Assembly: GCA_903927615.1 (NCBI GenBank)
Contig: CAIYNU010000095.1
Span: 20,651-84,650, forward strand
Direction of reading: 5' to 3'
Length of the DNA: 64,000 nt
DNA from: an uncultured Rhodospirillales bacterium
Lineage (GTDB): Bacteria > Pseudomonadota > Alphaproteobacteria > Azospirillales > Azospirillaceae
This document shows, in pieces, positions 33,897 through 51,453 of this stretch. Under the pieces are notes generated by a model, which had not been told where the DNA came from, did no database searches, and was given only the letters and a program-made list of their open reading frames with translations. The first letter of the stretch is position 1, and every line of letters starts with the position of its first letter. Position numbers and translations under genes: made by a program.

Positions 33897-34238
33897 ATGC
33901 AATTACCGCAAGACTCTGTTCTGCTCCGCATCTTCATTACCGAGCAAGACAAATATCAGAGTCGCCCGCTTTACGAGGCGATCGTCTTTAAGGCCCGGGA
34001 ACTTCATATGGCCGGCGCGACGGTTTTGCGTGGACCGCTGGGGTTTGGGCGATCGAGTAGCGTCCATACCGCCAAGGTTCTGCGGTTATCCGAGGACTTG
34101 CCGATGGTCATTGAAATCGTCGACAGCCCGGAGAAGATTGACGGTTTCCTACCCATTCTTGACAACATGGTCGGAAGTGACTTGGTGACGCTGGAAAAAG
34201 TCCAGGTTCGCCGATACGGCACCGACCAAAATCATTGA
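33897..34238 (+). CDS. DUF190 family protein
   Basis: This 113-aa cytoplasmic protein resembles PII-like DUF190 members: LLRIFITEQDKYQSRPLYEAIV, ELHMAGATVLRGPLGFG and LPMVIEIVDSPEKIDGFLP. DUF190 genes frequently accompany crcB, and the fold is PII/GlnK-like, so a ligand-responsive regulator of fluoride export is a reasonable inference. GGAGG lies 10 bases before the ATG 33897; the track start at 33864 lies upstream of the ribosome site. The stop overlaps or abuts the next gene, suggesting one operon. Confidence 0.93.
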   Translation: MQLPQDSVLLRIFITEQDKYQSRPLYEAIVFKARELHMAGATVLRGPLGFGRSSSVHTAKVLRLSEDLPMVIEIVDSPEKIDGFLPILDNMVGSDLVTLEKVQVRRYGTDQNH

Positions 34239-34255
34239 GTCCATGGGCTGTCGCC

Positions 34256-35413
34256 ATGGTGGCCATTGACACCATTGCCGAATGGGTGCGACGGAACGGC
34301 GCCGTGAACACGCCGGCCTTTTTTGACGCATTGAATGCCCAGAACAGCAAGGAGGGCAAACTCCGCTATGCCCTTGAAGTGGCCGCGAGAACCGAAGCAC
34401 AGGCGCCGATGGAGGCCAATGCGATTCGGTGTTATCTCAAAAACACCGGTTACGAGGTCACGGTTGCCGATCTTTGTACCAACTGGTTTGACCAGCGGGA
34501 AAACAATGGCGTTGTGCAAATAACGAATGATACCCCTTTACTGCCCCATCCGCGCGATGGGGTGACCGCACCATTCGTAAAAAATAAAATTTATGATGAA
34601 TTGGCCCGCGAGTTAGGAACCGATGTCTCATTTTCAGTCATTAAGCGTGAAAGCACTTTAATTAATGTCCGGTGTGTCATTTTCGATAATGAAATTAACA
34701 ATTCCGGTTTACCAATAACGATAATTTATGGCACCCAAAACATCGATCTTCAACTTTCGGCATTGCGCACCGCACTGCGGCATCTCCGTCTGCTCCGCCG
34801 GGTTTATTGTGTTCCAAAAATCCGATTGCTGGTTGATGAGGTGATGGCCCGGGCCTGTGCCCATTTGGCAATTGAGTTTGACGGCGTTCGCAATTTCGTG
34901 AATATTTTTACCGATCTGACCCTCTCTGAAGCCGCAATATGGTCCCAGACCAGAAGAAGCTATCGCCCTTTGATCAATAAATATCGCCACCGCCAAGCCA
35001 TTATCACGAGAACATTTGATGGGGTTGAAACATTCTTTAAAGATAAGTTCTGTCACGATATTTCCATGCAATATCAGAAATATATGATGATCAATAATGC
35101 AGGCGCGCTCTACACGTATTATAATGAGAATGGGCAGCTAAGCGCAATTATCGGTGTGACTGATATTGTCACAGGTCTGCATCATCAACTCTCCTGCTTT
35201 AATATCGGCGCATTCGAGAAATCAGAACCCGGTCATTACGCGCTCTACAACACTTTGCGGCATCTCAAGGAGCAAAACTACCGAAGATTTTATCTCGGAC
35301 TATGCAGCACTGAACAGGCGGTCTCGACCAAGGTCGGCGCCATTAATTTCTTCAAAACAGGGTTTTCGACACAAGTTGAGACGTATCGGGTCGGCGTAAC
35401 GTCCTTGTCATAA
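34256..35413 (+). CDS. Hypothetical protein with GNAT/FemAB-like C-terminus
   Basis: This is a protein of about 385 aa (392 from a TTG at 34235) of unknown function. The C-terminal about 150 residues have the look of a GNAT or FemAB-like acyltransferase fold: ALYTYYNENGQLSAIIGVTD, then SCFNIGAFEKSEPGHYALYNTLRHL and FKTGFS near the end. The N-terminal half (residues 1-100) looks helical. Base composition is more AT-rich than flanking genes, which may indicate transfer. It follows DUF190 closely and may form an operon with crcB. No substrate can be proposed. Confidence 0.7.
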   Translation: MVAIDTIAEWVRRNGAVNTPAFFDALNAQNSKEGKLRYALEVAARTEAQAPMEANAIRCYLKNTGYEVTVADLCTNWFDQRENNGVVQITNDTPLLPHPRDGVTAPFVKNKIYDELARELGTDVSFSVIKRESTLINVRCVIFDNEINNSGLPITIIYGTQNIDLQLSALRTALRHLRLLRRVYCVPKIRLLVDEVMARACAHLAIEFDGVRNFVNIFTDLTLSEAAIWSQTRRSYRPLINKYRHRQAIITRTFDGVETFFKDKFCHDISMQYQKYMMINNAGALYTYYNENGQLSAIIGVTDIVTGLHHQLSCFNIGAFEKSEPGHYALYNTLRHLKEQNYRRFYLGLCSTEQAVSTKVGAINFFKTGFSTQVETYRVGVTSLS

Positions 35414-35465
35414 GAAACCACCGCCCTCGATCTCCGGATGGTGACGGTTCCCGGCCCCCTTCCCG

Positions 35466-38400
35466 TTACGCGCTGCCCGGGGCGCTCTCCGGCGGGCCAA
35501 GCCAGGCTTCGATCGCATCCCAATCAAAGCGGTTAACCAGATGACGGAGGGTGAGGGCCAACTGATCCTGCTCCGGCGGCAACTGATTGATGAGAGAGGC
35601 CATTTCCACATCGTTGGAATGGAAGACGGCCCCTCGCATGGCGTCCAGCAGTTCAGGCTGAAGGTGATTCAGCGCGCTATGCTGTAATGGTACCGGCAGG
35701 GCGGGTTCGACTGCGGCGGTCGCCTCAGCATACTCGTATTTCAATCCGAGGTGAATCGCAATCACCGCCATCAGATCATCAACCAGCGCCGGCTTGCGCA
35801 CGAAATCATTGGCGCCGGTGGCCATCACCGCTTCCCGATCCTCGTCAAAAGCGCTGGCACTGAGGGCCACAATCTTAACGTTATGACCATCCGGATGTTC
35901 GCGAATCCGCCTAGTCGCTTCGTGACCGTCCATGGCCGGCATCACGATATCCATCAGGATCAAATGCGGGTCCCATTCGCGCCATTGGGCCAGCGCCTCC
36001 AGACCATTGGCGGCCTCGCGTAAAGCAAAGCGAAACGGTTCCAACAGTCTTGACAGAAACAAGCGATTTTCGACCTGATCATCGACGATCAGGATACGAA
36101 TCTCGCCCTGGCCCGGTTGCAGACCGATGACCCGACGCTTGTTTACCGGAAGGCAGATGGCATCAGGCAAACCGGTCTTAACGGGAACGTCAAACCGGAA
36201 CAGACTGCCCTTGCCCAAGACGCTTTTCACTGTGATGTCACCGCCCATCAGACGCGCAAGACGGCGACTGATAGCAAGTCCAAGCCCAGTACCGCCCTTT
36301 TCCAGCCCTTGGGAAGCCTGCTGAAACGCATCGAACAAGGGCCCCACTTCATGAGGAGCGATGCCGGGACCGGTATCTTCGACTTCAACAGTCAAGGTGG
36401 GGGGATGGCCGTCGTTGTTGTTGACGGTCCGCGCGCGTAAGACCACGCCACCGGCATCGGTAAACTTGACTGCATTGCCGAGCAGATTGATCAAAATCTG
36501 CCGCACCTTACCCTCGTCCATAATAATGAACTCGGGCAAATCGGCGGCCTTAGCCACCTCCCAATGCAAGCCTTTGGCGTCGGTAGGGACCTGAAAGACC
36601 TGATGCAGATCGCGGAGTAAGCCATGCAGGCTGAATAACTGGGGCACGATGGTGCTGCGACCGGCCTCAATCTTTGACATCTCCAGAACATCATTGATCA
36701 ACGTCAGCAGATTGCGACCACTGCGGAGGATGACATCGAGATTCTCGCGATCACGGATGCCCAGTGTCGAACTTCTCTGCATGATCTGAGCAAAACCCAA
36801 AATCGCATTCATCGGTGTCCGTATTTCGTGCGACATATTCGCCAGAAAGGTGCTCTTGGCATGATTTGCGGCCTCGGCCCGTTCCTTGGCGAGCGCGAGT
36901 TGTTGGTTCGACTCGGTCAGTGCGGCGGTACGTTCGGCCACCAACGCCTCCAGGTGATCCCGATAGCGGGAAATCTCCTGTTCGGCACGCCGACGTTCGG
37001 TGATGTCGTAGAGAACCGAGCGACTCATCACGAACGCCCCGTGCTCATCCCGAACCGCGGTCGCACTCAACAGGACAGGAAGCGTAGATCCGTCCTTGCG
37101 CAGCATTTCATATTCAAGTTCGTGAACAGCCCCCTGCGTCTTGAGTTGGGCAAAGGTTTCATGAAAAATATGATGGGCCTGGGGCGCCAACAGATCCGTA
37201 AATCTTAATTTACCGACCACCTCGTCGCGCCGGAAGCCAAGCCATAATAATTCCGTTTCGTTGACTTGTGCGTAAATACCCTGAGCATCGAGCGAGTGAT
37301 ATCCGCACGGGGCGTGATCGTAGAGATCCTGAATTTCCTCGGCCGACTTCGCCAGTGCCTCCTGATTTTTCAGGCGCTCCAAAAGATTATGCGCCTCCCG
37401 AATGCGCTCCTTCTCCGCCTGTAACAGGTCGGCTCGAATCAAAGCCTCCTTAAACACTCCCATGGCGCGGGCCATGGCGCCGACTTCGTCGAACCGGTCC
37501 AATGCCGGAACATCAATCGCCCGATCGCCGTTCGCCAAACGTTGCATTGCTCCGGTCATAGCGGTCAAGGGCCGGGTGATCCAACGCGCAAACACCATCC
37601 CCCCGGTGCAAAGCACCATCACCACCAAGATGCCGAGAATGATCATTTCATTGCGCATGGCCTGGACCGGGGCAAGAACCTCCTCCACCGCCGCCTCGGC
37701 TATCACCAACCATCTGAGCCCATGGAATTCCAGAGGTTTGATGGCAATCAAGACCCCTTTGCCATGACCATTGACCGCCTCAACGATGCCTTTTCTCGTT
37801 TCCGCATTGGCAGCGACGGCCATAACACCCCGACTATAGCCCCAATAGGGATGCAATATTGCCGCCTCGTCGGAAAACCGCGGCGTACTGCGCAGTAAGC
37901 CGTCGCTGCCGACCAGATACGTGTCCTCGGTCGCGCCCATGCCCTCACCCGACCGCATAATCCCTTCCAACCCGTCCGGCTTCAACCGGAAGACCAGCAT
38001 CGCCAACTGAACCCGACTGCCATCGGGCAGCACCTGGCTGACCGGGCTGGCAAAAAAAGCCGATGGACCGGTGCTGTCCGGAGGGTATGCCGCGAAATCG
38101 ACGACGGACACCACCTCCGTTTGATTATCCCCGCGCATCTTCTCCAGCGCCGTAATCAGCCGCCCACTTGCGAGGGGCAGGCCGAAGTCGGCGCTTTTGG
38201 CCACGGTATAAATGACGGTATTGTCGCTATTGACCAGTTCTACGTCCGCCAGGCGGCGGCGCTTGACCAAATCCGACATCCACCCCTGAAGACGGGCGTG
38301 TGCGGTGTCGTACAGCGTTCCCGTATTTGGGATAATATAGTCCCGCCGTTCCGGTGCGGGCCATGGATTGTCATCAACATAACGACGACGAAGCGCCGCT

Positions 38401-38693
38401 CCGGCATTTCCCGAGCGTTCCTTTTCCACGCGCCAGCCATTGATCAGCGCCACCACCGAGTCTTTTACGGAACGACTATTGGCAGTCAAGACTACGTCGC
38501 TGGCCAATCCTTCCAGATAGGTATGCACCGTCGCGCTCCGGGCATCCGCCAGCGCCACCAACTTGTTTTCAGCAGCATCCCTCAGACGTTTGCTGGCGGC
38601 CACATAAACCAATGTTCCCAACAGTAGCGCCGTCAGCACCGCAGAAGCCGCCAGCGCAAACGGTATCTTGTGACGGAGCAACACCCCCCGCAA
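35466..38693 (-). CDS. Hybrid histidine kinase with Cache, HAMP, PAS and receiver domains
   Basis: The 1075-aa inner-membrane sensor kinase has TM1, a large periplasmic double-Cache-like domain (about 35-345), TM2, HAMP, a PAS domain (about 460-580; YDHAPCGYHSLDAQGIYAQV), HisKA ([19 protein letters not shown], with phosphorylatable His), HATPase (DTGPGIAPHEV; GGTGLGLAISRRLA) and a receiver (ILIVDDQVENR; LILMDIVMPAMDG). The start is a TTG at 38693, 8 bases after GGGGAGG; it encodes MRGVLLRHKIPFALA, matching [15 protein letters not shown] of the chemoreceptor at 48126. The two periplasmic modules are clearly paralogous (for example [17 protein letters not shown]). No partner regulator gene is adjacent. 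Confidence 0.93.
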   Translation of the reverse strand: MRGVLLRHKIPFALAASAVLTALLLGTLVYVAASKRLRDAAENKLVALADARSATVHTYLEGLASDVVLTANSRSVKDSVVALINGWRVEKERSGNAGAALRRRYVDDNPWPAPERRDYIIPNTGTLYDTAHARLQGWMSDLVKRRRLADVELVNSDNTVIYTVAKSADFGLPLASGRLITALEKMRGDNQTEVVSVVDFAAYPPDSTGPSAFFASPVSQVLPDGSRVQLAMLVFRLKPDGLEGIMRSGEGMGATEDTYLVGSDGLLRSTPRFSDEAAILHPYWGYSRGVMAVAANAETRKGIVEAVNGHGKGVLIAIKPLEFHGLRWLVIAEAAVEEVLAPVQAMRNEMIILGILVVMVLCTGGMVFARWITRPLTAMTGAMQRLANGDRAIDVPALDRFDEVGAMARAMGVFKEALIRADLLQAEKERIREAHNLLERLKNQEALAKSAEEIQDLYDHAPCGYHSLDAQGIYAQVNETELLWLGFRRDEVVGKLRFTDLLAPQAHHIFHETFAQLKTQGAVHELEYEMLRKDGSTLPVLLSATAVRDEHGAFVMSRSVLYDITERRRAEQEISRYRDHLEALVAERTAALTESNQQLALAKERAEAANHAKSTFLANMSHEIRTPMNAILGFAQIMQRSSTLGIRDRENLDVILRSGRNLLTLINDVLEMSKIEAGRSTIVPQLFSLHGLLRDLHQVFQVPTDAKGLHWEVAKAADLPEFIIMDEGKVRQILINLLGNAVKFTDAGGVVLRARTVNNNDGHPPTLTVEVEDTGPGIAPHEVGPLFDAFQQASQGLEKGGTGLGLAISRRLARLMGGDITVKSVLGKGSLFRFDVPVKTGLPDAICLPVNKRRVIGLQPGQGEIRILIVDDQVENRLFLSRLLEPFRFALREAANGLEALAQWREWDPHLILMDIVMPAMDGHEATRRIREHPDGHNVKIVALSASAFDEDREAVMATGANDFVRKPALVDDLMAVIAIHLGLKYEYAEATAAVEPALPVPLQHSALNHLQPELLDAMRGAVFHSNDVEMASLINQLPPEQDQLALTLRHLVNRFDWDAIEAWLGPPESAPGSA

Positions 38694-38924
38694 CGTTGAT
38701 ACCTCCCCTTTTGAAGCATAAGCCAATATGACACGCGCAAAACCACGCCGCCAGTACGATAGCAGCTACCTCCTCGTGCGACAATGCTCGCGAAGACGAC
38801 AGGGATAAAAAACTTTCGGCCAAGCTATCGGCCGGTTGTGGCAACAGCCCGGTCAGGTCTCGGAGCCACGGCCAGGCGTCACCCGGTCCGGTGGTCCAAG
38901 CCATTTGAGCTGATTATTCACGGC

Positions 38925-38962
38925 CAGTCGGGAACCCCAAGCCCGATCCGAGTTCCCGACTG
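38925..38962 (-). terminator. 11-bp stem after the periplasmic cupin gene
   Basis: CAGTCGGGAAC and GTTCCCGACTG flank a 16-base loop, 8 bp beyond the cupin stop on the minus strand. There is no T-run. The 38694-38970 region has no gene I can support. Confidence 0.5.
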
Positions 38963-38970
38963 CCGAGCCA

Positions 38971-39450
38971 CTACTTACCGGCACTGTGCCCGGACTCAAA
39001 GTGAACCCCCCACGGGCCCATGGCCGTGACTTCGATAATCGTTTCCTCATCGCCCGTCGCCGAAAATTGTTTGACATTGGCAGGAAGCATATAGAAACCG
39101 CCAGGCGGCAACGCCTGAAGCTTGCTGTCGTCAAAGATGTCGCCGCTGGCGGTCTTCCAGGTCCCCGAGATAACGGTCACATACTCCTGGCCGGGATGGG
39201 AATGGGGCGGGACTCTTAGCTTTGGCGGCCACTTGGCTCTGAAGATGAACAGCCCGGGTTGGCTGGGATCGCCCCAAACCACGGTGGTTTTCACGCCGGG
39301 CGGAAGATTTGGGTTGTCTGTCCAGACCAGATCCGAGGGTGCGATCTGAACGGCCGCATTGCCGTTAGACTCTGCACGCGCGATCCCCATCGTTAACCCG
39401 ACGGCACAAGCAACGACTGTTGCCATCGGTCGATAGTAACGATTTGCCAT
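38971..39450 (-). CDS. Periplasmic cupin-domain protein
   Basis: The 159-aa precursor has a signal peptide (VVACAVGLTMGIARAES) and a cupin of the ChrR/anti-sigma-like type: VPPHSHPGQEYVTVISGTW supplies the metal-binding His/Glu set and LPPGGFYMLPANVKQFSATG the second motif. Secreted cupins of this kind bind small carboxylates or serve as lyases or dioxygenases; the substrate here is unknown. It sits between the hybrid kinase and the tandem binding proteins, all on the minus strand. Confidence 0.87.
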   Translation of the reverse strand: MANRYYRPMATVVACAVGLTMGIARAESNGNAAVQIAPSDLVWTDNPNLPPGVKTTVVWGDPSQPGLFIFRAKWPPKLRVPPHSHPGQEYVTVISGTWKTASGDIFDDSKLQALPPGGFYMLPANVKQFSATGDEETIIEVTAMGPWGVHFESGHSAGK

Positions 39451-39912
39451 TAATGCCTCCCACTTTCACGGGTCTCGGATACGCGGCATCACGCATGACA
39501 TATTATGGTGAGCCGGTTTGCCCGGTCAATATGGCGTCCGAGTGTTTGCGTTGCCCCGGTGGAATAGCAGCATTCACTTACTGATTGCAATCGAAATATA
39601 AAAAAGCTTCTCCTGCGGCCCTTTGTTGACCGTTTCATGATAACAATTTATCTCAATATTCGAAAACTCTTTATGTTTACACCCTGTAAAGATAATTGTC
39701 GCAATATCGTCAGACTCTCTGTTTGAGTAAATCCCAAGCCCCAGTAACGGATGTCATAGGCCCAGTGTTGAGACCGAGACGTTTCATACCCAAAGATCGT
39801 GTCTCGCTCTCAACACATCACCACTCACAAACGCGTGCTCCGGCCCGACGGGCGGGTCCCATGAGTCGGAACGGGTGCCCACCCATCCCCCTGAATCACA
39901 GCACAACACGCC
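39451..39912. other. Intergenic region, about 460 bp, no gene seen
   Basis: This lies upstream of the cupin gene and downstream of the first binding-protein gene. It has an AT-rich core (39560-39690) and no ORF with protein-like character. It probably contains the promoter of the cupin gene. No hairpin or repeat stood out. Confidence 0.5.
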
Positions 39913-41115
39913 TCATTTCTTCACAAGCGGGCATTCGCTTTGGGCCAGCGGAAGGAACGCCTGGTCGCCGGGGATCACCTTGACCAGTTTGTAATAGTCC
40001 CACGGTCCCGTGGACTCAGCGGGGGTCTTAATCTCAAACAGATACATGTCACGCACCACGCGACCATCTGGCCGAAGTTTGCCGTTTTTGGTCATAAAGT
40101 CATCGACCGGAAGTTCCCTCATTTTGGCCATGACCGCGTCGGTCTGGTTGGTGCCGGCTGCTTTCACTGCCTTCAGATAATGGTTGACCGCGCCAGCGAC
40201 ACCAGCCTGGAACATATTCGGCATCAGGTTACGCTTTGCCATAAATCTCTTGGCGAACGCGCGGGTGTCATCGTTCAAATCCCAGTAATAGGCTTCGGTC
40301 AATTCGATACCCTGGGTTACCGGCAGTCCCAGCGTTTTCACATCATTGATGACCAACAACAGGATGGCCAGCTTGTGGCCCGACTGGGTAATACCGAAAT
40401 CCGAAGCCTGACTAATCGCGTTGGTGGTGTCGGACCCCGAAGACGCAATGGCCAGCACATCGGCATTCGACTGCTGAGCCTGCATCAACACCGGCGAAAA
40501 ATCCGGGTTATTGGCAGGGTAATGAACGCTGCCAAGCACCGTTCCGCCGCTATCCTTCACCACCGCGGTCGTTTCACGTTCCAGGGTAGCGCCGAAGGCA
40601 TAGTCAGCAGTCATAAAAAACCACGTCTTACCACCATTCGCCACAATGGCTTTACCGGTGACATGGGCTAACGCATAGGTATCATAGGTAAAATGAACGC
40701 TCACGGGCGTGCAGGCCGCGCCGGTAAGATTAGACGCGGCTGACGACGAGAACATGACGATACGATTTTTCTCCTTCGCGACTTTCTGTACCGCCAGCGC
40801 AACAGCGGTATTAGGGACGTCGACAATCATATCGACGCCTTCGTCATACCAGCGTGCGGCGATCGCGGCACCGACTTCTGGCTTGTTCTGGTGGTCCGCC
40901 GAGAGCACCTCAATCGGGACACCATTGATTGCGCCGCCAAAGTCCTCAACCGCGAGTTGGGCTGCGGCAATTGAACCCTGGCCGGTGTTTTCGGTGTGCT
41001 CTCCAGCGAGATCAGTCAAAACGCCGATTTTAATCGGTTTACCGCTCATCTGGGCATAGGCTCCCTGAGAGATCAGGCAAGCGATAACCGCAAATGCCAC
41101 TCCGAAACGCTTCAT
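39913..41115 (-). CDS. Type I periplasmic binding protein (branched-chain amino acid/amide type), copy 1
   Basis: This 400-aa precursor has a signal peptide ending AYA|QM, then a Peripla_BP_6 fold: IKIGVLTDLAGEHTENTGQGS, ADHQNKPEVGAAIAARWYDE, WFFMTADYAFGATLERET and a C-terminal GKLRPDGRVVRDMYLFEIK. Such proteins feed Liv/Urt-type ABC importers for amino acids, amides or aromatic acids. No permease or ATPase gene is nearby. It is followed in tandem by a close paralogue upstream (41420-42622). It may serve a distant transporter or dock to a Cache-type receptor. Confidence 0.93.
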   Translation of the reverse strand: MKRFGVAFAVIACLISQGAYAQMSGKPIKIGVLTDLAGEHTENTGQGSIAAAQLAVEDFGGAINGVPIEVLSADHQNKPEVGAAIAARWYDEGVDMIVDVPNTAVALAVQKVAKEKNRIVMFSSSAASNLTGAACTPVSVHFTYDTYALAHVTGKAIVANGGKTWFFMTADYAFGATLERETTAVVKDSGGTVLGSVHYPANNPDFSPVLMQAQQSNADVLAIASSGSDTTNAISQASDFGITQSGHKLAILLLVINDVKTLGLPVTQGIELTEAYYWDLNDDTRAFAKRFMAKRNLMPNMFQAGVAGAVNHYLKAVKAAGTNQTDAVMAKMRELPVDDFMTKNGKLRPDGRVVRDMYLFEIKTPAESTGPWDYYKLVKVIPGDQAFLPLAQSECPLVKK

Positions 41116-41419
41116 CAGTGCCTCCGCAAGACGTTATGACTGCATGGCGTATGTCTGGATCATCTCAGAATGGTGACGCCCCAGACAACGCTGCCGCGTC
41201 ACCGTCCCGCTGAGCAAGAAACCTGACGACGCTAACTTATCACGTCTTTCCTACCTTTCGAACGGAATAGTTACCATTCTGGTTCGAGGGTGACCCCAGT
41301 CGGAGGCCCGATCAAGAAGAACCCGGATCGCTTCACCAAACACTTTTCCGGCCGTGATCCGGTGCGTCAGAATAACGCGGCAATCACCTCCGTTGTCCGT
41401 TTGAGCACACTGTCTTTTA
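41116..41419. other. Spacer between the tandem binding-protein genes, about 300 bp
   Basis: No protein-like ORF, strong hairpin or repeat is visible. Its length suggests that each copy has its own promoter. Confidence 0.4.
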
Positions 41420-42622
41420 CTATTTCTTTACAAAGGGGCAATTTCCATCGGCCAGGGGCCGGAATGCCTGGTCTCCTGGAACAACCTTCACGAGCTTATA
41501 GTAGTCCCAACGCCCTTTGGACTCGGCCGGGGACTTAACCTGGAACAGATACATATCACGAACAACACGACCATCTTCGCGCAACTTACCGTTCTTGGTC
41601 ATGAAGTCATTCACCGGAAGGTCCCGCATCTTCGCCATCACCTCGTCGGCCTGTTCGGTTCCCACCGCCTGAACCGCTTTCAGGTAGTGTGTGACCGCGC
41701 CGGCGACCCCGGCCTGGTACATGTTCGGCATGACGCTCCGTTTGGCGAAAAAACGTTTCGAAAAAGCGCGTGTTTCGTCGTTCATATCCCAGTAAAAGGC
41801 GTCAGTCAGCATAATGCCCTGGGTCACCGGCAGGCCCAGACCGTTCACATCATCGATCGCCAGAAGTAAAATTGCCAATTTACGACCAGACTGTAGGACA
41901 CCGAAATCGGCGGCCTGGCTGATCGCATTCTTGGTATCAATACCGGCTGAGGTCAAAGCCAGAACTTCGGCGTTGGACTGCTGCGCAATCATCATCACAG
42001 ACGAGAAATCAACATTGTTGGCGGGGAAGCGCACGCTGCCCAACACCTCTCCACCGTTGGCTTTCACCACCGAGGTGGTTTCCTGTTCCAGAGTCGCCCC
42101 GAAAGCGTAGTCAGCCGTCATGAAGAACCAGGTTTTCGCCCCCCCACTGGCGATCGCCGCGCCGGTGACGTGGGCCAGAGCGTAGGTATCATAGGTAAAG
42201 TGGACACTTACCGGCGTACAGGCCGTGCCGGTCAGGACCGAACCCGCCGGTCCCGAAAACATGACGATCCGGTTCTTTTCCTGCGCGACCTTCTGCACCG
42301 CCAACGCCACCGCGGTGTTCGGCACATCGACAATCATGGTGACGCCTTCATCGTACCAGCGACGGGCGATATCGGCACCAACCTCCGGCTTGTTCTGATG
42401 GTCGGCCGAGATCACCTCAATCGGTATGCCATTGATGGCGCCGCCAAAGTCCTCAACAGCAAGTTGTGCGGCAGCGACCGATCCCTGTCCGGTATTTTCG
42501 GTTAGCATGCCGCCCAGATCGGTCAGGACGCCGATTTTGATCGGCTTGCCGCTCATCGTCGCATGGGCGTCCTGAGCTATAAAACAACCAAAAAGTATTG
42601 CTATTAACCAGAGGCGCCTCAT
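41420..42622 (-). CDS. Type I periplasmic binding protein, copy 2 (tandem paralogue)
   Basis: This 400-aa protein is the same length as copy 1 and nearly co-linear with it throughout. The signal peptide ends AHA|TM, followed by KIGVLTDLGGMLTENTGQGS and VDFSSVMMIAQQSNAEVLAL. Differences are concentrated in scattered positions rather than blocks, so this is an old duplication that has diverged, probably with altered ligand preference. Its start faces the AT-rich region before the aldolase operon, making it divergent from that operon. Confidence 0.93.
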   Translation of the reverse strand: MRRLWLIAILFGCFIAQDAHATMSGKPIKIGVLTDLGGMLTENTGQGSVAAAQLAVEDFGGAINGIPIEVISADHQNKPEVGADIARRWYDEGVTMIVDVPNTAVALAVQKVAQEKNRIVMFSGPAGSVLTGTACTPVSVHFTYDTYALAHVTGAAIASGGAKTWFFMTADYAFGATLEQETTSVVKANGGEVLGSVRFPANNVDFSSVMMIAQQSNAEVLALTSAGIDTKNAISQAADFGVLQSGRKLAILLLAIDDVNGLGLPVTQGIMLTDAFYWDMNDETRAFSKRFFAKRSVMPNMYQAGVAGAVTHYLKAVQAVGTEQADEVMAKMRDLPVNDFMTKNGKLREDGRVVRDMYLFQVKSPAESKGRWDYYKLVKVVPGDQAFRPLADGNCPFVKK

Positions 42623-43639
42623 TACCGTCTCCCCAAAGACTGAGTCACCGGACCACGCGATCCACGATACCCGGTGCGGTTGGTATGAGGCTCATAGCAT
42701 GCTTTTACAGAATCATGATGAACTTTCTATGGCATATCATGGGGTCACGCCCGGTTTTGTGGAACAAGGCGTTGGCGCTTGCCTCGAATGATTCTCATTC
42801 GGCAAGGTAGCAGGCACTATAAAGGGAGCATCGACCACTATGAACATCGATGTCATGCGCTAATTTAGTAACTTAAACGAGTTAAGCGCCCTGACTGGCA
42901 GGCTGATAAGGCATTAATAATGCCCGTGTGCGAATTAATATCTGTTATGCACCGTGATTTCTTCTTCTGATCGGCTGAACAAAAAACAAGTTGGCGAATA
43001 TATATATCAGTGGTTCGTTTGATAACAACATATTGGGCAGGCGATAATCGATAGTGTTCCAACAACCTCGCCGTTTTCGCCTCTTCAAATTTCCTTATTC
43101 GTGCCATCGAAGGCTTTATGCTTAGGTAACGCATTGTTTGCAACGCTGAGAGTGATCGTGTAGACAACTTTTGTTCTCCGATCGCTCTTTTAAATTATTG
43201 TATGATTGATCGGCAATTGTTATCAAGAATTAATAAACTGCGACCTCTCCGAGATTGGGCATACATCTGTATGTATCTAAAATTTATTTCAATTAATGAT
43301 GAAATGTTGTTGCAATGCATTCGATCTCATGATAATTCGCTTGGACAGACAGTAATGGTTCGTTCTCAATAAGGTTATCTCACCGCTGGGCATCGCACAC
43401 TATATGCTCAGTGCGCATTGCGTCAGACTTTGGGGACAGATTATCGCAGTATGCTGCGTCGCTGGGGTACGTGTTCTGCGAGACGCTTGCGTTGCGACAA
43501 CAACGCTGCCGGCACTCGTGAGTATTGTCCACCTCAATAGCACGAACTCCTAGCGAACTCGCCCCTGCCTGCCCCCAGGTGGCATCGGGCATGGTTGAGA
43601 CCACGGACCAGTGCAAAACCACACCTATGGAGACATGAG
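42623..43639. other. AT-rich region, about 1 kb, without a supported gene
   Basis: From about 42820 to 43400 the sequence is markedly AT-rich against a GC-rich background, with runs such as AATATATATATC. The minus-strand ORF 42865-43167 (100 aa) has no family resemblance. The region separates the binding-protein gene from the divergent aldolase operon and probably contains both promoters. It could bind a nucleoid silencer or be a remnant of inserted DNA. Confidence 0.6.
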
Positions 43640-44572
43640 ATGGGCATCACCACCAAAGTTACCAATATCGATGTGACGTTGCGCGACGGCGGCTATCGTA
43701 ATGGCTTTAAATTTAACGAGGACTATGCCAAAGCCCATGTTCGGAGCATGGAGCAGTGCGGCGTGGAATATGCTGAAATCGGTTATCGCAACGGCTCGTT
43801 CAAGCCGATCACAGATATTGGACTGACGGGGCTGACCCCAGATTCATATATTTCAGAAATACGCAGTGCTGTAACGTCCAACTGTATTTGCGTTATGGCT
43901 CATCCTAAAAATATTCTTGGCGAAGAAATTGTGCGCATGCACAAGCTTGGCGTCAATATGCTGCGCTTTTGCTGGGACAACAACCGGATTGAGCTGACCA
44001 GAGATTATGTTCATCTTGCAAAATCCTTGGGCATGACGGTGTGTGTCAACCTCACCCGGGTCAGCCACCAACCGACCAAGCTGTTGCTCGCCAATGCCGA
44101 AGCGGTGCGGGATTTCGGCGGCGATGTGCTGTACCTCGCCGACTCCAACGGCAGTCTGACGCCGAACCGGGTTTGGGAAATGGTCAATCTGGTGCGCGGC
44201 TACACCAACATGCCCATCGGCTTCCATGCCCACGACAATTTGGGCCTGGCGATGGCCAACAGCATCGCCGCGGTCAAGGCTGGCGCCACCTTTATTGATG
44301 GCTCGCTGCGGGGCATGGGTAAGGGGGCGGGTAACCTCAAACTCGAACTATGGCTGGCCTTCCTGCGGTGTGGCCGCGGGGTCGACGATTACGACCACGC
44401 TTCCATCCTCAATCAGGTCGAAGTCCTGGAAAAGGCCGACGGTCAGTCGCGCCCGATTCAGCCCTTGGATGATTTGGTTCTGGGTCTGTTTGATCTTACG
44501 GTCGAAGACAAGGATCGAATCATCGCAAACGCGGAATCGATCGGACAAGTCTTCACCAATGCGGCCGCCTGA
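43640..44572 (+). CDS. HMGL-like (DRE-TIM) aldolase/condensing enzyme
   Basis: This 310-aa TIM-barrel protein is of the HMG-CoA lyase / 4-hydroxy-2-oxovalerate aldolase type. The metal and catalytic motif is NIDVTLRDGGYRNGFKF, and the second metal motif is IGFHAHDNLGLAMANS. It should cleave or form a C-C bond of a 2-oxo acid using a divalent metal. No acylating aldehyde dehydrogenase partner, usual for MhpE-type aldolases, is present. GGAGA lies 6 bases before the ATG 43640. It is the first gene of a four-gene operon. It resembles orphan aldolases of unknown substrate more than leucine or citrate-pathway enzymes. Confidence 0.9.
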   Translation: MGITTKVTNIDVTLRDGGYRNGFKFNEDYAKAHVRSMEQCGVEYAEIGYRNGSFKPITDIGLTGLTPDSYISEIRSAVTSNCICVMAHPKNILGEEIVRMHKLGVNMLRFCWDNNRIELTRDYVHLAKSLGMTVCVNLTRVSHQPTKLLLANAEAVRDFGGDVLYLADSNGSLTPNRVWEMVNLVRGYTNMPIGFHAHDNLGLAMANSIAAVKAGATFIDGSLRGMGKGAGNLKLELWLAFLRCGRGVDDYDHASILNQVEVLEKADGQSRPIQPLDDLVLGLFDLTVEDKDRIIANAESIGQVFTNAAA

Positions 44573-44636
44573 CCCTTCCCCCTCCAACGCCGGTCGGGCC
44601 AATGGCCGCCCGACCGGTTGAGAGCCAGCGACGATC

Positions 44637-46100
44637 ATGAACAAAAAGATTCTCGTTCTGCCCGGCGACGGCATCGGGCTTGAGGTTTGCGCGGCCGCAA
44701 TGCCGGTGTTCGACCAACTCAATCTGCCGCTGACGTTTGAATACGGCGAGATCGGTTGGGAGTGCTGGCGCCGGGGCGGCGACCCGATTCCCGAAGAGAC
44801 CTGGCGTAAAATTCGCGCCAGCGATGCCGTGTTACTCGGTGCCATCACCAGCAAAGGCAAGAATCAGGCCGAAGCCGAACTGGCACCCCATCTTCAGGGT
44901 CGGGGACAAACGTATATTTCACCGATTATCCAGTTGCGCAAGCAACTGGATGCCTATGTCAATGTCCGACCGGCCGAACGGCTGGTCGGCGGCGGCAGAC
45001 CGTTCCGGATGGTGGTGCTGCGCGAGAACACCGAAGGGCTTTATGTCGGCTTGGACCGGCGCGGGGTGCCCGAGAGCCTGCGCGCGATGCTGAACAATCC
45101 CAATCTTGAAAAAAGCGGCGCCGACCAGGCGACGTTCTCGGTACGATTACTGACCCGTTTCGGGTTGACCCGGCTGTTCGCCTACGCCTTCGCTTACGCC
45201 CGCGCCAACGGCCACTCCCGGGTGACACTGGCCGACAAACCAAATGTGCTTCGGGAAAGCGGTCAGTTCTCTGCCGACCTGTTTTCCGCCGCAGCGGCCG
45301 GATACCCAGAGATTGCTACGAGCATCGAAAATGTCGACGCGGTTGCCTTGCGCATGGTGACGCGACCGGAAACCTATGGCGTGATCGTGGCCGAGAACAT
45401 GTTCGGCGACATTCTGTCCGATCTGGCTGCCGGCGTCATGGGGGGACTCGGCGTGGCGCCAAGCGCCAATGTCGGAGGCGGCATCCGCTATTATGAGCCG
45501 GTCCACGGCAGCCACCTCCGGGTTGCCGGCCAAGGACTGGCCAACCCTTCGGCCATGTTCCTGACCATCGCCCTGATGCTCGAGGACCTGGGATTCGCCG
45601 CGGCAGCCCGAAGCGTTCAACATGCCGTGCGCGCCACCATCGCCCGGGGCCGGACCGTGACCTACGACCTGGGCGGCAACGCCTCGACCCAGACCATGGC
45701 CGAAGCCATCCTGGGGGAATTGAAAAGCCCCAAGTCCTTCCAGCGAGCCTGCGTTCTCAGCGTCGGCGATGACCTGCTTGACGGGCGGTCGATGGACACC
45801 AAGGTCCCGGTGATTTGCCAGGCACTCATGAAAAAGGGATATTCCGTCGGCCTGCACCTGAGCTGCGGAGCGCAGTTGGCGGCGGTCAGTCAGGCGCTGG
45901 TCACAAGCCTCGGCCAGTCCGACGTCATCGCCATCAGCGGCGGCGGCGGCGACGTCGGCCTGCTGCGCCACGCCATCGCCTCGACCCTTGGGATCGCCTC
46001 AGACTTCCTCGGTTCGCGTCTGAACTGCCGTGGCAAAACCCTTTACCTGTTGCCCGAATCGGCCGAAGCCGCCGCCGCCTACCTGGAGGATAGCCTGTGA
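44637..46100 (+). CDS. Isopropylmalate/isocitrate-type dehydrogenase fused to a MoCF/CinA-like domain
   Basis: This is a 487-aa fusion. Residues 1-360 form a beta-decarboxylating dehydrogenase: [47 protein letters not shown] and [20 protein letters not shown]. Residues about 368-487 resemble a MoCF/CinA N-terminal fold: [20 protein letters not shown], then [15 protein letters not shown]. Normal enzymes of this family are about 350 aa and lack the tail. The dehydrogenase would oxidatively decarboxylate a 2-hydroxy acid; the added domain might bind a nucleotide or cofactor. The stop overlaps the next gene (GTGA), so the genes are translationally coupled. Confidence 0.85.
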
Positions 46101-46780
46101 CTGTGACCGTCAACGACATCGACGCCCTGCGCGCACGGTTCGTTCGCCTCGACACCCCCGCCGTCAGCGACGCCTTGGACAGTCTGGGTATTCCCGGCGT
46201 CCTGGCCGGCATCCAGGCCCGGGTGCCCGGTCTGATCACCGCCGGCCCGGCTTATACGGTCCAATACCGGCCCTTTGAACGGCTCGGTGGCACGTTTCAC
46301 GGCGCCGGCAACTACATCGACGATGTTCCGCCCGGAAACGTCGTCCTGATCGACAACGAAGGCAGCACCACCTGTACCAATTGGGGCGGTTTGCTGACCG
46401 TCATGGCCGGGCTCCAGGGCATTGTGGGGACGGTGATCCATGGTTCCGCCCGGGATCTGGCCGAGGTCCGGCATCTCAATTATCCCCTGTTCAGCCGCGC
46501 CGTCACCATGGTTTCGGCCAAAAACCGGGCCAAAGTCACCGGCCTTCAAGTTCCGCTGGAGATCGAGGGCGTTCGGGTCGCCCCCGGAGACTGGGTCATG
46601 GCCGACGACAACGGCGCCTTAGCCATTCCCGCGGCCAGCGTGATCGAGGTGCTGGAACGGGCGGAAGCGATCGACCGCACCGAGTCGGATATCCGTGACG
46701 CGATCAAGGGAGGTATGCCTTTGGTCGATGCCCGCAAGCAATTTGGCTACAGTGAGCCCTGGAAGCCAAGGAACGCGTGA
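46097..46780 (+). CDS. RraA-family aldolase/decarboxylase-like protein
   Basis: The 227-aa protein is of the RraA / 4-hydroxy-4-methyl-2-oxoglutarate aldolase fold: LDTPAVSDALDSLGIPGVL at the N-terminus, then GIVGTVIHGSARDLAEVRHL with the Arg-Asp pair and VAPGDWVMADDNGALAIP. True RraA regulators of RNase E are about 160 aa; this longer form is the enzyme type, which cleaves 4-carboxy-4-hydroxy-2-oxoadipate-like acids or decarboxylates oxaloacetate. It starts at a GTG overlapping the previous stop and overlaps the next gene, so it is part of a tight operon. Confidence 0.9.
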   Translation: MTVTVNDIDALRARFVRLDTPAVSDALDSLGIPGVLAGIQARVPGLITAGPAYTVQYRPFERLGGTFHGAGNYIDDVPPGNVVLIDNEGSTTCTNWGGLLTVMAGLQGIVGTVIHGSARDLAEVRHLNYPLFSRAVTMVSAKNRAKVTGLQVPLEIEGVRVAPGDWVMADDNGALAIPAASVIEVLERAEAIDRTESDIRDAIKGGMPLVDARKQFGYSEPWKPRNA

Positions 46781-47658
46781 TGGCCGAGACATTTGCCGCC
46801 TATTGGCGTTCCAGGCTGAGTTTTCTCGACGTTCATTATCACGCCCGACCCGACGCCTATCTGCGACGACGCGGCGTGATCGGCACCGGCCAGGGGTATC
46901 GGGATCTTGGCGGCGGCGTCGTCTTGAAAAATCACCTGGGCAGCAGCGTGGCCGCCGCCGAGGCGGCACGCGAGTTGGACCTGCCCGTGCTGGGGTCCGT
47001 GGTGCTGAACGCCATCGCCGGCGGGCCGGTGCCACGGGTGGTGACTCAGGCACTGGCCCAGGTTCAGGCCCCGCACAGCGGCCGGTTGCTGGTCCATCTG
47101 CCGACCCACACCCGAACTCGCCACGTCAGCACCCTGAAACGGGCAATCAGCAATGATTACGTGAGTCGGGACGGATTCGAACCCTGCGCATTATGCGACG
47201 ACACCGGCCGGTTGACGGCGCAGGTGTTGGAGCTTGTACGCTGGGCCAAGGATCATCCTGTGGTCTTATCAACCGGCCATGCCGATCGTGATACTGTGTA
47301 TCGATTGATCGATGCCGCCAAGAACAGCGGGTTACCGCGCTTGATGCTCAACCAGCCCGCAAGCCCGATGACCGGTTTGAACGCCGCGGATCTGAAGGCC
47401 TTGGCCGGTGAATCCTGGCTATTCATCGAGCAAACCGCGCTCACCTATCTGCTTGGCTATCAGACATGGGAGGATTTCGCGGCCGTCCTGAAAGACGTGC
47501 CTAACGTCGTCTACAGTTCAGACTTGGGTCAGACCAGCCAAATCGATATCGCCGAATGGCGAACATGCAGCCGCTCGTGGTTTCAGGCGACAGGACTGGA
47601 TGCCCAACGGATTCAATCAATTGAGTTGGAGACGCCGCTGGCCATGCTTTCACCGTAA
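46780..47658 (+). CDS. DUF6282-type putative metal-dependent hydrolase
   Basis: The 292-aa protein begins MAETFAAYWRSRLSFLDVHYHARPDAYLRRRG. The DxHxH near the N-terminus is typical of amidohydrolase/PHP-like metal sites, and further candidate ligands are VLSTGHADRDTVYRLIDAAK and the VVYSSDLGQ segment. I match it to DUF6282 by eye. The ATG at 46780 overlaps the previous TGA. It is the last gene of the operon and could open, hydrolyse or dehydrate an intermediate. No reaction is established. Confidence 0.75.
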   Translation: MAETFAAYWRSRLSFLDVHYHARPDAYLRRRGVIGTGQGYRDLGGGVVLKNHLGSSVAAAEAARELDLPVLGSVVLNAIAGGPVPRVVTQALAQVQAPHSGRLLVHLPTHTRTRHVSTLKRAISNDYVSRDGFEPCALCDDTGRLTAQVLELVRWAKDHPVVLSTGHADRDTVYRLIDAAKNSGLPRLMLNQPASPMTGLNAADLKALAGESWLFIEQTALTYLLGYQTWEDFAAVLKDVPNVVYSSDLGQTSQIDIAEWRTCSRSWFQATGLDAQRIQSIELETPLAMLSP

Positions 47659-48125
47659 GTCAGATTTGAAACTACGGTATTTCGTATAACGGCGCGGCGG
47701 TTTGCCGATCAAGGGACTAAAGCGGCCCCCTGAATCCAAGATCGACCGCCCCGACCTTGCACTGCATTATGAACGCCACCAAAACGTGCATCATTAGCTC
47801 TCTCAGGAACTTGCCTGTCGAAACCCGCTGACTTTCATAATCATTGGAGACACGATCATTTCGTAGGTCACAGGAAGAATATCTTATCCCTGTCGCGGTG
47901 CATATATCGATATGCACGCTCATTCTCACAACACATCCCTCCGCATCATAATATTAATGGGTCCCCCTATCCCATCATTGGTAACATCAGCTTGCTTTCA
48001 TCGCGAGCGCCGCTTCGCGATCCGCGAACCTGCTGATGAAGACCACCGCTTGACAGTGAACTCTGTTGACGTTAGGTGATCGGCCGATCGCGATTGTCAC
48101 AAGCCGTTATGAGGGGTCCTGGAAG
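47659..48125. other. Intergenic region, about 465 bp, with an 8-bp stem
   Basis: No protein-like ORF is present. A symmetric element GTGCATAT-ATCG-ATATGCAC lies at 47900-47919 and may be an operator for the chemoreceptor gene. A TTGACA-like box occurs at about 48050. Confidence 0.45.
47900..47919. promoter_or_regulatory. Dyad-symmetric element GTGCATAT-N4-ATATGCAC
   Basis: Two perfect 8-bp half-sites flank ATCG in an otherwise featureless intergenic region 206 bp before the chemoreceptor start. The size suits a dimeric regulator; no family assignment is possible. Confidence 0.35.
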
Positions 48126-50261
48126 ATGCGAGGCGTGTTCCTTCGGTACACCATTCCCGGTGCGTTCGTTCTGACGGTGATATCCACCGCGCTGCTCTTA
48201 GGGATTGCAGTGTATGCCTCATCCAGTGTCCGCTTGCGCGATGCCGCGGAAAGCAAGCTCGTCGCGCTGGCCGATGCCAGAGCGGGCAGTGTGCAAGGCT
48301 ATCTTGAAGGATTAGACTCTGACGTTGTCTTGACGGCCAATACGCGCTCACTGAAAGATTCAGTGGTTGCTTTGACCAATGGTTGGCGGATCGAGAAAGA
48401 GCGGGCTGGCTCCGCTGAAACTGCTTTACGCGATCGCTACGTCACAAAAAACCCATTTCCCGTCGGCGAACTGTCTAAATTCACCATCAATCAAGGTTCA
48501 TTATACGATACGGCACATGCCCGTTTGCAGCCTTGGATGGCTGACCTCTCGGCACGGCGCGGACTCGCCGATGTCCTGTTGGTGACACCCGACGGATCGG
48601 TGATTTACTCCATGGCCAAAGGGACCGATTATGCCGTATCGGCCACCAGCGGTCCCCTTGCCGACGCCATCTCGGCCTTTCGCGATTCACCCAAGGCCGA
48701 GGCCATTCACTTTGCCGATTATGCGCCTTATGCGCCCGATCAATCCTTACCATCGGCCTTTATTGCCACACCCGTCGTTCAGGCCCTTCCCGACGGCAAA
48801 TCACAATTGCTGGCCGTTCTGGTCTTTCGTTTAAGGTCGGAAGCCATTGACCGGATCATGCAGTCGTCGGAAGGGATGGGAAGCACCGGAGATACCTATC
48901 TGGTCGGCACCGATGGTCTGCTCCGCAGCACCTCGCGGTTTTCCCTGCAACCCACGATTCTGCAACCGTACAAGGGCACGATAAAGACCACGGCCACCGA
49001 GGCCAGCGTCGGCCAGGCCCGGAATGGCCGGGGCGAACCGGTCATCGCCGCCCGTCATCCGCTCAAGTTCCATGACAGCCAGTGGACAGTCTTGTGCGAA
49101 GCCAGCGTCGGTGAGATCTTGGCGCCGGTTGACGCCATGCGCGTGGAAATGATAGAAATCGGGACTGTGTTGACCCTGGTCTTCAGCCTCGCCGGGTTGA
49201 TCTTCGCTCGCGGCATTACGCGCCCGTTGTCGGCCATGAGCCAGGCCATGCAGAAAATGGCCGAGGGCGACCGGCAAATTGCGATTCCTGCCGTGGAACG
49301 AACCGACGAAATCGGGCTTATGGCCGCCTCCATGCAGATATTCAAGGAAGCTTTGATTCACGCCGATGCGATGCATGCCAAGGAGGAGGAACAGCGCGCA
49401 AAAAATGCTCAGCGATCGGCGCGCCTGGATCATGTGCTGCGCACCTTTGATTCCGGAGTCGGAACCATCGTTTCCGCAGTGAACGCCGCGGCCTCCGGTT
49501 TGGAAGGGACGGCGCGCTCCATGACCGAACGGGCCGACGAGACGCTCTACCGCGCCACCGAAGTGGCCGCCGCCGCCGAGGAAACCGCGTCCAATGTGCG
49601 GACGGTGGCCACCGCAACGGATCAGTTGCGGACATCCATCAGAGACATCGGCCAACGTGTCGTCGAGTCGGAAAAGGTTACCGAAGCGGCCATGAGCGCA
49701 GCCGCGCGCGCCAACGGCACGGTCAAGCAATTGACCGAAACCCGCCAGCGGATTGGGGATGTGATCAGCCTGATCCATGGCATCGCGGCGCAGACCAACC
49801 TTCTGGCCCTCAATGCCACCATCGAGGCGGCACGGGCCGGAGAGGCCGGCAAGGGCTTTGCGGTGGTGGCGGGCGAGGTGAAACGCCTGGCCACCCAAAC
49901 CGCCCGCGCCACCGACGAAATCTCAAGCCAAATCACCAACATGCAGTCTGTCACGACCGGTGCCGCGACGGCCATCGGCGAGGTCGTGCGCGTGATGGCC
50001 GATATGAAGGCCATCTCCGGCGTCATCAACCAGGCCATTGACGAGCAACAGATGACGGCGGCCGAAATCGCCGACAACGCCCAGCAGGCGTCGCAAGCAA
50101 CCAATGCGGTGACGGTTATCATCAACGATGTCGCCCGCTCTGCCGATGTCAACAAGACGGCGGCAACCGCGGTGCTCACGTCCTTCCGCGACCTGACCCA
50201 AGAATCCAACCGGCTGGGAGGAGTGGTGGAGCAACTGCTGAAAGATGTCCGCGCTGCCTGA
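48126..50261 (+). CDS. Methyl-accepting chemotaxis protein with the same sensor module as the hybrid kinase
   Basis: The 711-aa transmembrane chemoreceptor has TM1, a periplasmic double-Cache-like domain (about 33-335), TM2, HAMP ([21 protein letters not shown]) and a signalling domain with the tip [20 protein letters not shown] followed by [20 protein letters not shown]. The periplasmic part parallels the kinase at 35466-38693 segment by segment ([49 protein letters not shown]). I chose the ATG 48126 ([13 protein letters not shown]) over the track's 48066. Ligand unknown; shared sensing with the kinase is inferred. Confidence 0.95.
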
Positions 50262-50295
50262 GCCCGATCGGGGCGCCCCAGGCGAAGGGGCCAAC

Positions 50296-51453
50296 GTGAT
50301 ACCGTTTCGCCAGAAGGTCGCCATTTTTCTGACCGGCTTTGCGGCCTTCCTGCCCCTTTATGCCCCACAGGCGGTGTTACCCGACATGGCCGCCACCCTG
50401 GGGGTGTCACCGACCGCGGCTGGCTCGGTGATCGGGGCGACCACGTTGGCGGTGGCCCTGGCCGCACCGGCGGCCGGACCGCTGGTCGACCGTTTCGGAC
50501 GAAAGTTCGCCATGGTCACAGCCATTCTGCTGCTGGCGCCGCTCACCCTGTTGCTCAGCTTCTGCACCGGCTTGTCCGACATTCTGGTCGTTCGCTTCCT
50601 GCAAGGCGTCGCACTCCCGGCTCTGTTCGCCGGGATCGTCGCTTACGTCACCGAACGCTGGCAAGGCCATACCGCCGCTGTCGGCATGGGCGTTTACGTG
50701 TCCGGTGGGGTCATCGGCGGATTCGCCGGCCGGTTCCTGGCCGGGTCGTCGGCCGAACTGCTGGGCTGGCAGGGCGCCTTCGCGGTGCTCGCCGTGGTCT
50801 CGGCCGGTTGCGCGCCGGTGGTTTGGCGGTGGCTGCCGGCCGATGCGGCACGGCGCGGTGGCGGGCTGATGACGCACATCGCCACCATGGCTAACCATCT
50901 CCGCAACGTCCGCATCCGCGCCGCTTGCGTGCTTGGCGCCACCGTGTTGTTCGCCCTCAACGGCACCCTGTCCTATATTGGCTTTCGTCTGGCCGGGCCG
51001 CCCTTCGACCTCAGCCCGGCCGGTATCGGTCTGGTCTTTTGCGTCTATCCCATCGGCAGCGCCATCGTTCCGCTGAATGGACGGCTCTTGCGCCGTTTCG
51101 GCTTCCGCGGTGCCGCGTTGGTGGCGCTGGCGGTCTGCGCCGTCGGACAGGCGACGCTGCTGGTTCCCCAACTTGCGGTGACCATTGTCGGAGTCTGTAT
51201 TTTTGTCACCGGCATCTTCCTGTGCCAGTCCCTGGCGCTCGGCTATGTCGGTCGGGCGGCGGCGACCGGTAAGGGCGCGGCGGCCGGTCTTTACGTTTGC
51301 TGCTTTTATGCCGGCGGCAGTCTCGGCGCCGTCGCCCCCGGCCTCGCGTGGGGCAGCGCCGGTTGGACCGGCTGTGTGCTCCTGGTCTGCGCTGCTCTAA
51401 CCCTGGGCGCCGCGGCGTCCCGGTTTATGGACGACGGCGGCACCCGGGCGTAG
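50296..51453 (+). CDS. MFS transporter
   Basis: This protein of about 385 aa has 12 helices in the major facilitator arrangement, with the loop 2-3 motif GPLVDRFGRKFAMVTAI and the matching NGRLLRRFGFRG in the second half. It resembles the YnfM/AraJ-type drug or metabolite exporters. GAAGGGG lies 5 bases before the GTG 50296; the track's ATG at 50245 lies inside the chemoreceptor gene and is the alternative. It may be co-transcribed with the chemoreceptor. The substrate is unknown. Confidence 0.88.
   Translation: MIPFRQKVAIFLTGFAAFLPLYAPQAVLPDMAATLGVSPTAAGSVIGATTLAVALAAPAAGPLVDRFGRKFAMVTAILLLAPLTLLLSFCTGLSDILVVRFLQGVALPALFAGIVAYVTERWQGHTAAVGMGVYVSGGVIGGFAGRFLAGSSAELLGWQGAFAVLAVVSAGCAPVVWRWLPADAARRGGGLMTHIATMANHLRNVRIRAACVLGATVLFALNGTLSYIGFRLAGPPFDLSPAGIGLVFCVYPIGSAIVPLNGRLLRRFGFRGAALVALAVCAVGQATLLVPQLAVTIVGVCIFVTGIFLCQSLALGYVGRAAATGKGAAAGLYVCCFYAGGSLGAVAPGLAWGSAGWTGCVLLVCAALTLGAAASRFMDDGGTRA

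Follow-up and report, generated by a model that had tools for sequence, protein, structure and literature searches.

A candidate four-family pathway module with fused dehydrogenases, recurring in gene order across bacterial phyla

We analyzed a 64,000-nucleotide stretch of DNA from an uncultured Rhodospirillales bacterium (contig CAIYNU010000095.1; hereafter the window) and focused on four genes at 43640–47658 that encode an HMGL-like aldolase, a beta-decarboxylating dehydrogenase of the Iso_dh family with an additional domain, an RraA-type protein, and a DUF6282 protein. We tentatively propose, with somewhat less than even confidence, that these genes make up the core of a single, as yet undescribed, pathway module for a malate-like (2-hydroxy-3-carboxy) polyfunctional acid. 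Related clusters fuse the dehydrogenase either to the RraA-type protein or to a CinA domain. That the whole constitutes a new cross-phylum pathway built on these fused enzymes, in which CinA, where fused, would act on the nicotinamide cofactor of its partner dehydrogenase or on an adduct arising during catalysis, seems to us about evenly poised between right and wrong. An earlier, sequence-only reading of this DNA had noted the four families at this site; all the open reading frames are present there on one strand, and all four proteins scored above the Pfam cut-offs for their named families, as listed below.

43640–44572, forward strand: gene 1, HMGL-like (DRE-TIM) aldolase of the DmpG branch (PF00682, 111.8 bits)
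44589–44618, forward strand: G+C-rich stem-loop in the gap between genes 1 and 2, with no T-run
44637–45716, forward strand: Iso_dh (beta-decarboxylating dehydrogenase) domain of gene 2 (PF00180, 266.2 bits)
45717–46100, forward strand: shortened MoCF/CinA (COG1058)-like C-terminal tail of gene 2 (PF00994 MoCF_biosynth, 29.7 bits)
46097–46780, forward strand: gene 3, predicted RraA-type class II pyruvate aldolase/decarboxylase (PF03737, 113.7 bits)
46777–47658, forward strand: gene 4, DUF6282 protein, predicted TIM-barrel metal-dependent hydrolase/lyase (PF19799, 143.1 bits)

The stop-start overlaps that the same reading had described throughout the cluster hold for genes 2 and 3 (46097–46100) and for genes 3 and 4 (46777–46780), each pair sharing 4 bp, but not for genes 1 and 2, where a 64-bp gap separates the HMGL stop (44572) from the dehydrogenase start (44637). 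The stem-loop in this gap lies at the same position in two related species, with a changed stem sequence, and might function in RNA processing or attenuation; no tRNA or RNA family was found within the window. The rate of nonsynonymous substitution (dN) is far below that of synonymous substitution (dS) in all four genes, less clearly so for the MoCF-like tail.

Gene order and domain fusions across phyla

Scanning GTDB with the HMGL alignment recovered two Rhodospirillales metagenome-assembled genomes and 16 actinomycete loci, in 14 of which the Iso_dh, RraA, and DUF6282 families follow HMGL in this order. One actinomycete locus (L022) has broken frames, with all families still detectable, and at another (L016) the sequence stretch ends ahead of the other three families. 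Legionella adelaidensis carries an uninterrupted run of genes for an ATP-grasp ligase, HMGL, an alpha/beta-hydrolase-fold protein, Iso_dh, RraA, and DUF6282. Two further Pseudomonadota genomes of a single family (G186 and G1024) keep HMGL, Iso_dh, and RraA in order and place DUF6282 last, after extra genes whose products are an ABM protein, a monooxygenase resembling SfnG, and an FMN reductase resembling RutF. A LysR regulator and a transporter of the major facilitator superfamily (MFS) accompany these clusters; NMO and alpha/beta genes were read in G186 only. The order HMGL-(alpha/beta)-Iso_dh-RraA-DUF6282 is common to Actinomycetota, Legionella, and the window genus, and nearly the same elsewhere.

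Two kinds of fusion accompany this order. Streptomyces and Actinopolyspora encode Iso_dh and RraA as domains of a single protein, a fusion from which we conclude that the dehydrogenase and RraA probably act in succession. In Lentzea and Kutzneria, Iso_dh is instead fused to an intact MoCF/CinA domain (106–108 bits). We know of no description of either the Iso_dh-RraA or the Iso_dh-CinA architecture. A check of conserved neighborhoods, proposed along with the sequence-only reading, thus turned up not poor conservation but an order maintained between phyla, together with a fusion of dehydrogenase and RraA; both findings favor the view that the genes form a single pathway unit. They strengthen the earlier idea of an unassigned pathway, and no paper on the set was found in a search limited to open-licence literature.

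The module is nevertheless rare. One further genome among 399 Pseudomonadota carries it, as do two of 199 in the family of G186 and G1024, and among 397 Actinomycetota genomes it was found in none except the center genome. The GTDB scan used only two peptide patterns, which cannot pick up the types seen in Legionella and in the other Pseudomonadota; the distribution given here is therefore a lower bound. Within the window genus conservation is patchy, with the cluster present in three of five genomes and only a leuB-like gene kept in the other two. Across 16 loci, the pairwise identities seen for each of the four proteins track one another (correlations of 0.91–0.95), as would be expected for co-inheritance; species relatedness also contributes. 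Searches of plasmids matched the dehydrogenase to the Legionella copy only, and DUF6282 to the Legionella copy and a distant archaeal relative only. The Legionella record (L033) is labeled a plasmid yet carries eno, rpoH, and ftsX.

Catalytic residues and nearest relatives

No module protein reaches the curated cut-off for a known enzyme, as judged by model scores. The dehydrogenase scored at best 276.8 against an NCBIfam equivalog cut-off of 540, with 207 against 470 for TTC and 188 against 353 for leuB; the tartrate and homoisocitrate dehydrogenase models both match it below cut-off. It forms a subfamily of its own, with E-values of 1e-187 to 1e-189 for cluster members and 1e-44 to 1e-50 for leuB-like paralogs. 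It shares all catalytic residues with LeuB, homoisocitrate dehydrogenase, isocitrate dehydrogenase, and tartrate dehydrogenase: the substrate Arg triad, the catalytic Tyr and Lys, and the metal Asp residues (Arg101, Arg111, Arg129, Tyr136, Lys201, Asp234, Asp258, and Asp262) are invariant, and the domain thus retains every residue expected for oxidation and beta-decarboxylation. It differs from these enzymes in its separate grouping, its fusion to CinA-like or RraA domains, and its cofactor motif. The Asp of the GSAPDIAG motif marks NAD-specific beta-decarboxylating dehydrogenases; the window protein has GSHLRVAG here, and in aligned cluster members the Asp position is occupied by Arg, Ala, Gly, or Lys. 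As the NAD-type Asp is missing, we predict that the cluster dehydrogenase uses NADP. A housekeeping role in leucine biosynthesis or the tricarboxylic acid cycle was considered and rejected, given a separate leuB-like gene elsewhere in the genome and the distinct subfamily of the cluster dehydrogenase. Five further HMGL-domain genes also lie outside the cluster. In line with the sequence-only reading, the cluster contains no leuCD-like or citrate-synthase-like partner.

That reading had also noted an extra domain on the dehydrogenase, and this part indeed proved MoCF_biosynth/CinA-like. Two motifs, GXEX3G and GG(L/I)GPX3D, are the signature of COG1058 (PMC3680494). Both are retained in a Lentzea fusion (L012), and the Lentzea and Kutzneria fusions carry the intact form of this domain, homologous to the CinA/COG1058 pyrophosphatase. 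The window copy has neither motif, with GDDLLDG and SGGGGDVG instead, and its dN/dS is ~0.25–0.6, compared with ~0.05–0.15 for the Iso_dh part. By these measures the tail is a decayed CinA/COG1058 (MoCF) domain and, with its motifs lost and its evolution faster, the CinA part in the window lineage would be either altered or dispensable.

The HMGL-like protein shares its fold with DmpG and BphI (4-hydroxy-2-oxovalerate aldolase), as well as the Arg/Asp pair and HxH residues of the metal site: Arg15, Asp16, His196, and His198 are invariant among 19 sequences and align with the class II metal site of 1nvm. However, the window protein and all actinomycete copies have LRDGGY (Tyr19) where 1nvm has LRDGSH, and the His at this LRDGxH position is catalytic in aldolases of the DmpG/BphI type. 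The protein is also ~35–45 residues shorter than DmpG-type aldolases, its C-terminal part does not align with them, and no partner acylating aldehyde dehydrogenase occurs among the genes examined beside the module copies. It scored 163.4 against the NCBIfam cut-off of 229 for HOA aldolase and 142.9 against another cut-off of 286, and no more than 99 bits with 2-isopropylmalate, homocitrate, and citramalate synthase models, whose cut-offs are at least 413. The closest solved sequence is a putative aldolase, 3dxi (E 2e-40), which has the same LRDGGY motif but is itself uncharacterized and aligns with the HMGL-like protein at residues 10–249 only.

The RraA-fold structure 3k4i, a Pseudomonas syringae protein, matches the profile of the cluster RraA at E 3e-93, so that a solved structure of a close relative already exists. 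Arg119, Asp120, and Glu196 are invariant in the cluster RraA; the Arg and Asp align with 3noj, and Glu196 was matched to 3noj by similar spacing. Active-site Arg, Asp, and Glu residues are shared with 3k4i and with LigK, the HMG/CHA aldolase, in which Arg-123, Asp-124, and Glu-199 serve the pyruvate enolate and the metal (PMC5065237). The cluster protein nonetheless falls far below the LigK cut-offs (70–73 bits against 179–304, with 72.9 against 304.5 for the LigK equivalog), and 3k4i is itself uncharacterized. The catalytic residues of both the dehydrogenase and RraA are intact and compatible with the chemistry on 2-oxo and 2-hydroxy acids (pyruvate-type) foreseen by the sequence-only reading.

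For DUF6282, a sequence search against solved structures gave no credible match. Its predicted model (mean predicted local distance difference test score, pLDDT, 91.4) best matches TIM barrels of the amidohydrolase superfamily, at moderate TM-scores of 0.5–0.6, and its putative metal and acid residues, His20-x-His22, Lys51, His53, His168, and Asp249, are invariant. DUF6282 is on this prediction a candidate member of that superfamily. With COG3618 and related amidohydrolases (4do7/4dlf, phosphotriesterase, and dihydroorotase) it would share the barrel and the HxH motif, but it has no credible sequence similarity to any solved structure and the fold match is only moderate. DUF6282 genes of the same bacterial family (L006 and L007) and of Natrinema show 22–30% identity and other, catabolic-looking surroundings; being distant and differently placed, they were not used to assign function. 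Distant DUF6282 genes (L006, L007, and L036) lie beside HpaI-type aldolases, other amidohydrolases, or CoA-transferase genes.

Most lineages outside the window genus add the alpha/beta-hydrolase-fold protein, which the window cluster lacks. This protein (L018 8939–9709 and relatives) has no Pfam match; its fold is supported by an AlphaFold2 model (pLDDT 87) and by many structure matches at E <= 1e-9. Ala takes the place of the nucleophile Ser in the copies that were aligned, apart from that of Legionella, which retains Ser.

Proposed route and competing explanations

In the route that we propose, DUF6282 would act as a metal-dependent hydrolase or hydratase that opens or hydrates a precursor, giving the free hydroxy acid. 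Iso_dh, with its intact catalytic residues, would then oxidize the hydroxyl and release the beta-carboxylate as CO2 to yield a 2-oxo acid, which RraA, judging by its conserved residues, may cleave by a retro-aldol reaction into pyruvate and a second carbonyl fragment, or else decarboxylate. The HMGL-like enzyme could catalyze another metal-dependent aldol or retro-aldol reaction of the pyruvate type, acting either on the product or on the precursor. Flavin enzymes of the Streptomyces type, and the SfnG-like monooxygenase of the other Pseudomonadota clusters, may be lineage-specific side steps onto the same core. From sequence we infer the reactions, their order, the cofactor, and the direction, and we give just under an even chance to a central sequence in which oxidative decarboxylation comes first and cleavage by RraA second. 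The sequence-only reading had offered a branched or hydroxylated dicarboxylic acid as a possible substrate, in a catabolic or biosynthetic route. For the window genus, sensing and consumption of an external acid is the most likely function of the unit, and breakdown there appears somewhat more likely than synthesis.

Several points weigh against this route. RraA-fold enzymes can also be dehydratase/decarboxylases (PMC8563752). The aldol role of the HMGL-like protein is uncertain, given that it is missing the His of the characterized HOA aldolases. Other features point to synthesis and export, and with them to a biosynthetic module whose core would combine pyruvate aldol addition with oxidative decarboxylation to build a small exported specialized metabolite, each lineage having its own tailoring and export; we regard this as a real, though minority, possibility. 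The Legionella copy opens with a cyanophycin-synthetase-like ATP-grasp ligase (L033 9334–10419), 8 bp upstream of HMGL, and an A-factor-type AfsA domain is encoded near the Streptomyces actuosus copy. The MFS proteins of the Pseudomonadota and Lentzea copies resemble efflux pumps, TetR and LysR regulators lie near several actinomycete copies, tailoring-type genes (flavin monooxygenase, FMN reductase, ABM, and NMO) occur, and the distribution is patchy. However, no nonribosomal peptide synthetase, polyketide synthase, or other assembly gene was seen adjoining the module copies, the chemoreceptor, sensor kinase, and two binding proteins of the window genus (described below) suit an external ligand better, and the characterized RraA-fold enzymes of PMC5065237 and PMC8563752 work in breakdown pathways.

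The module might also be an already known route in diverged form that curated models simply fail to recognize, for instance the catabolism of tartrate/malate or of 4-hydroxy-2-oxoglutarate, or the protocatechuate-4,5-cleavage pathway (LigI/LigJ/LigK). The relationship of RraA to LigK, the COG3618 amidohydrolases among the best DUF6282 fold matches, and the matching tartrate and homoisocitrate dehydrogenase models would all suit this explanation. We consider it unlikely, as all equivalog scores are far below cut-off, the dehydrogenase forms a separate group, and no ring-cleavage dioxygenase or other signature gene was seen in the copies examined. Finally, although each family is common individually, chance proximity of unrelated genes is highly improbable, being contradicted by the recurrence of the order and families in Actinomycetota and other Pseudomonadota, the fusion protein, and the shared absence in congeners.

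If the pathway module that we propose is real, it would provide the first functional context for DUF6282, on which we found no paper, and for the solved RraA structure 3k4i, and would add two Iso_dh fusion architectures. Because the module is compact, occurs in culturable Streptomyces, Lentzea, and Legionella, and includes a natural dehydrogenase-aldolase fusion, its reaction lends itself to testing with just one or two purified proteins.

Genomic surroundings in the window genus

The following neighbors flank the cluster in the window:

35466–38726, reverse strand: hybrid sensor histidine kinase (PAS, HisKA, HATPase, and receiver domains)
39913–41115, reverse strand: Peripla_BP_6 solute-binding protein 2, a close paralog of protein 1
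41420–42622, reverse strand: Peripla_BP_6 solute-binding protein 1, divergent from the operon
48066–50261, forward strand: methyl-accepting chemotaxis protein with HAMP and MCPsignal domains and a weak dCache_1 match, in conserved synteny with the operon across all three genomes of the genus that carry it
50245–51453, forward strand: MFS transporter that travels with the operon

A search for defense systems gave no PADLOC match. The kinase, both binding proteins, the chemoreceptor, and the MFS transporter accompany the operon in three genomes of the window genus, at two different sites. The kinase and the chemoreceptor at 48066 share an N-terminal sensor part, at ~54–56% identity. No permease gene was found adjoining either Peripla_BP_6 gene, and the two binding proteins are possibly sensory.

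In one congener (G002) the block lies on a different contig, apart from the downstream genes that adjoin it in the window, and two others (G001 and G003) have no block at the corresponding place. The G+C content is ~0.50–0.57 at 34000–44000, compared with ~0.60–0.69 in most of the window, which suggests that this region is acquired DNA. The company of genes, the differing sites and absence in congeners, and the low G+C together point to a larger mobile unit, sensing an external compound, in which the operon of the window genus sits.

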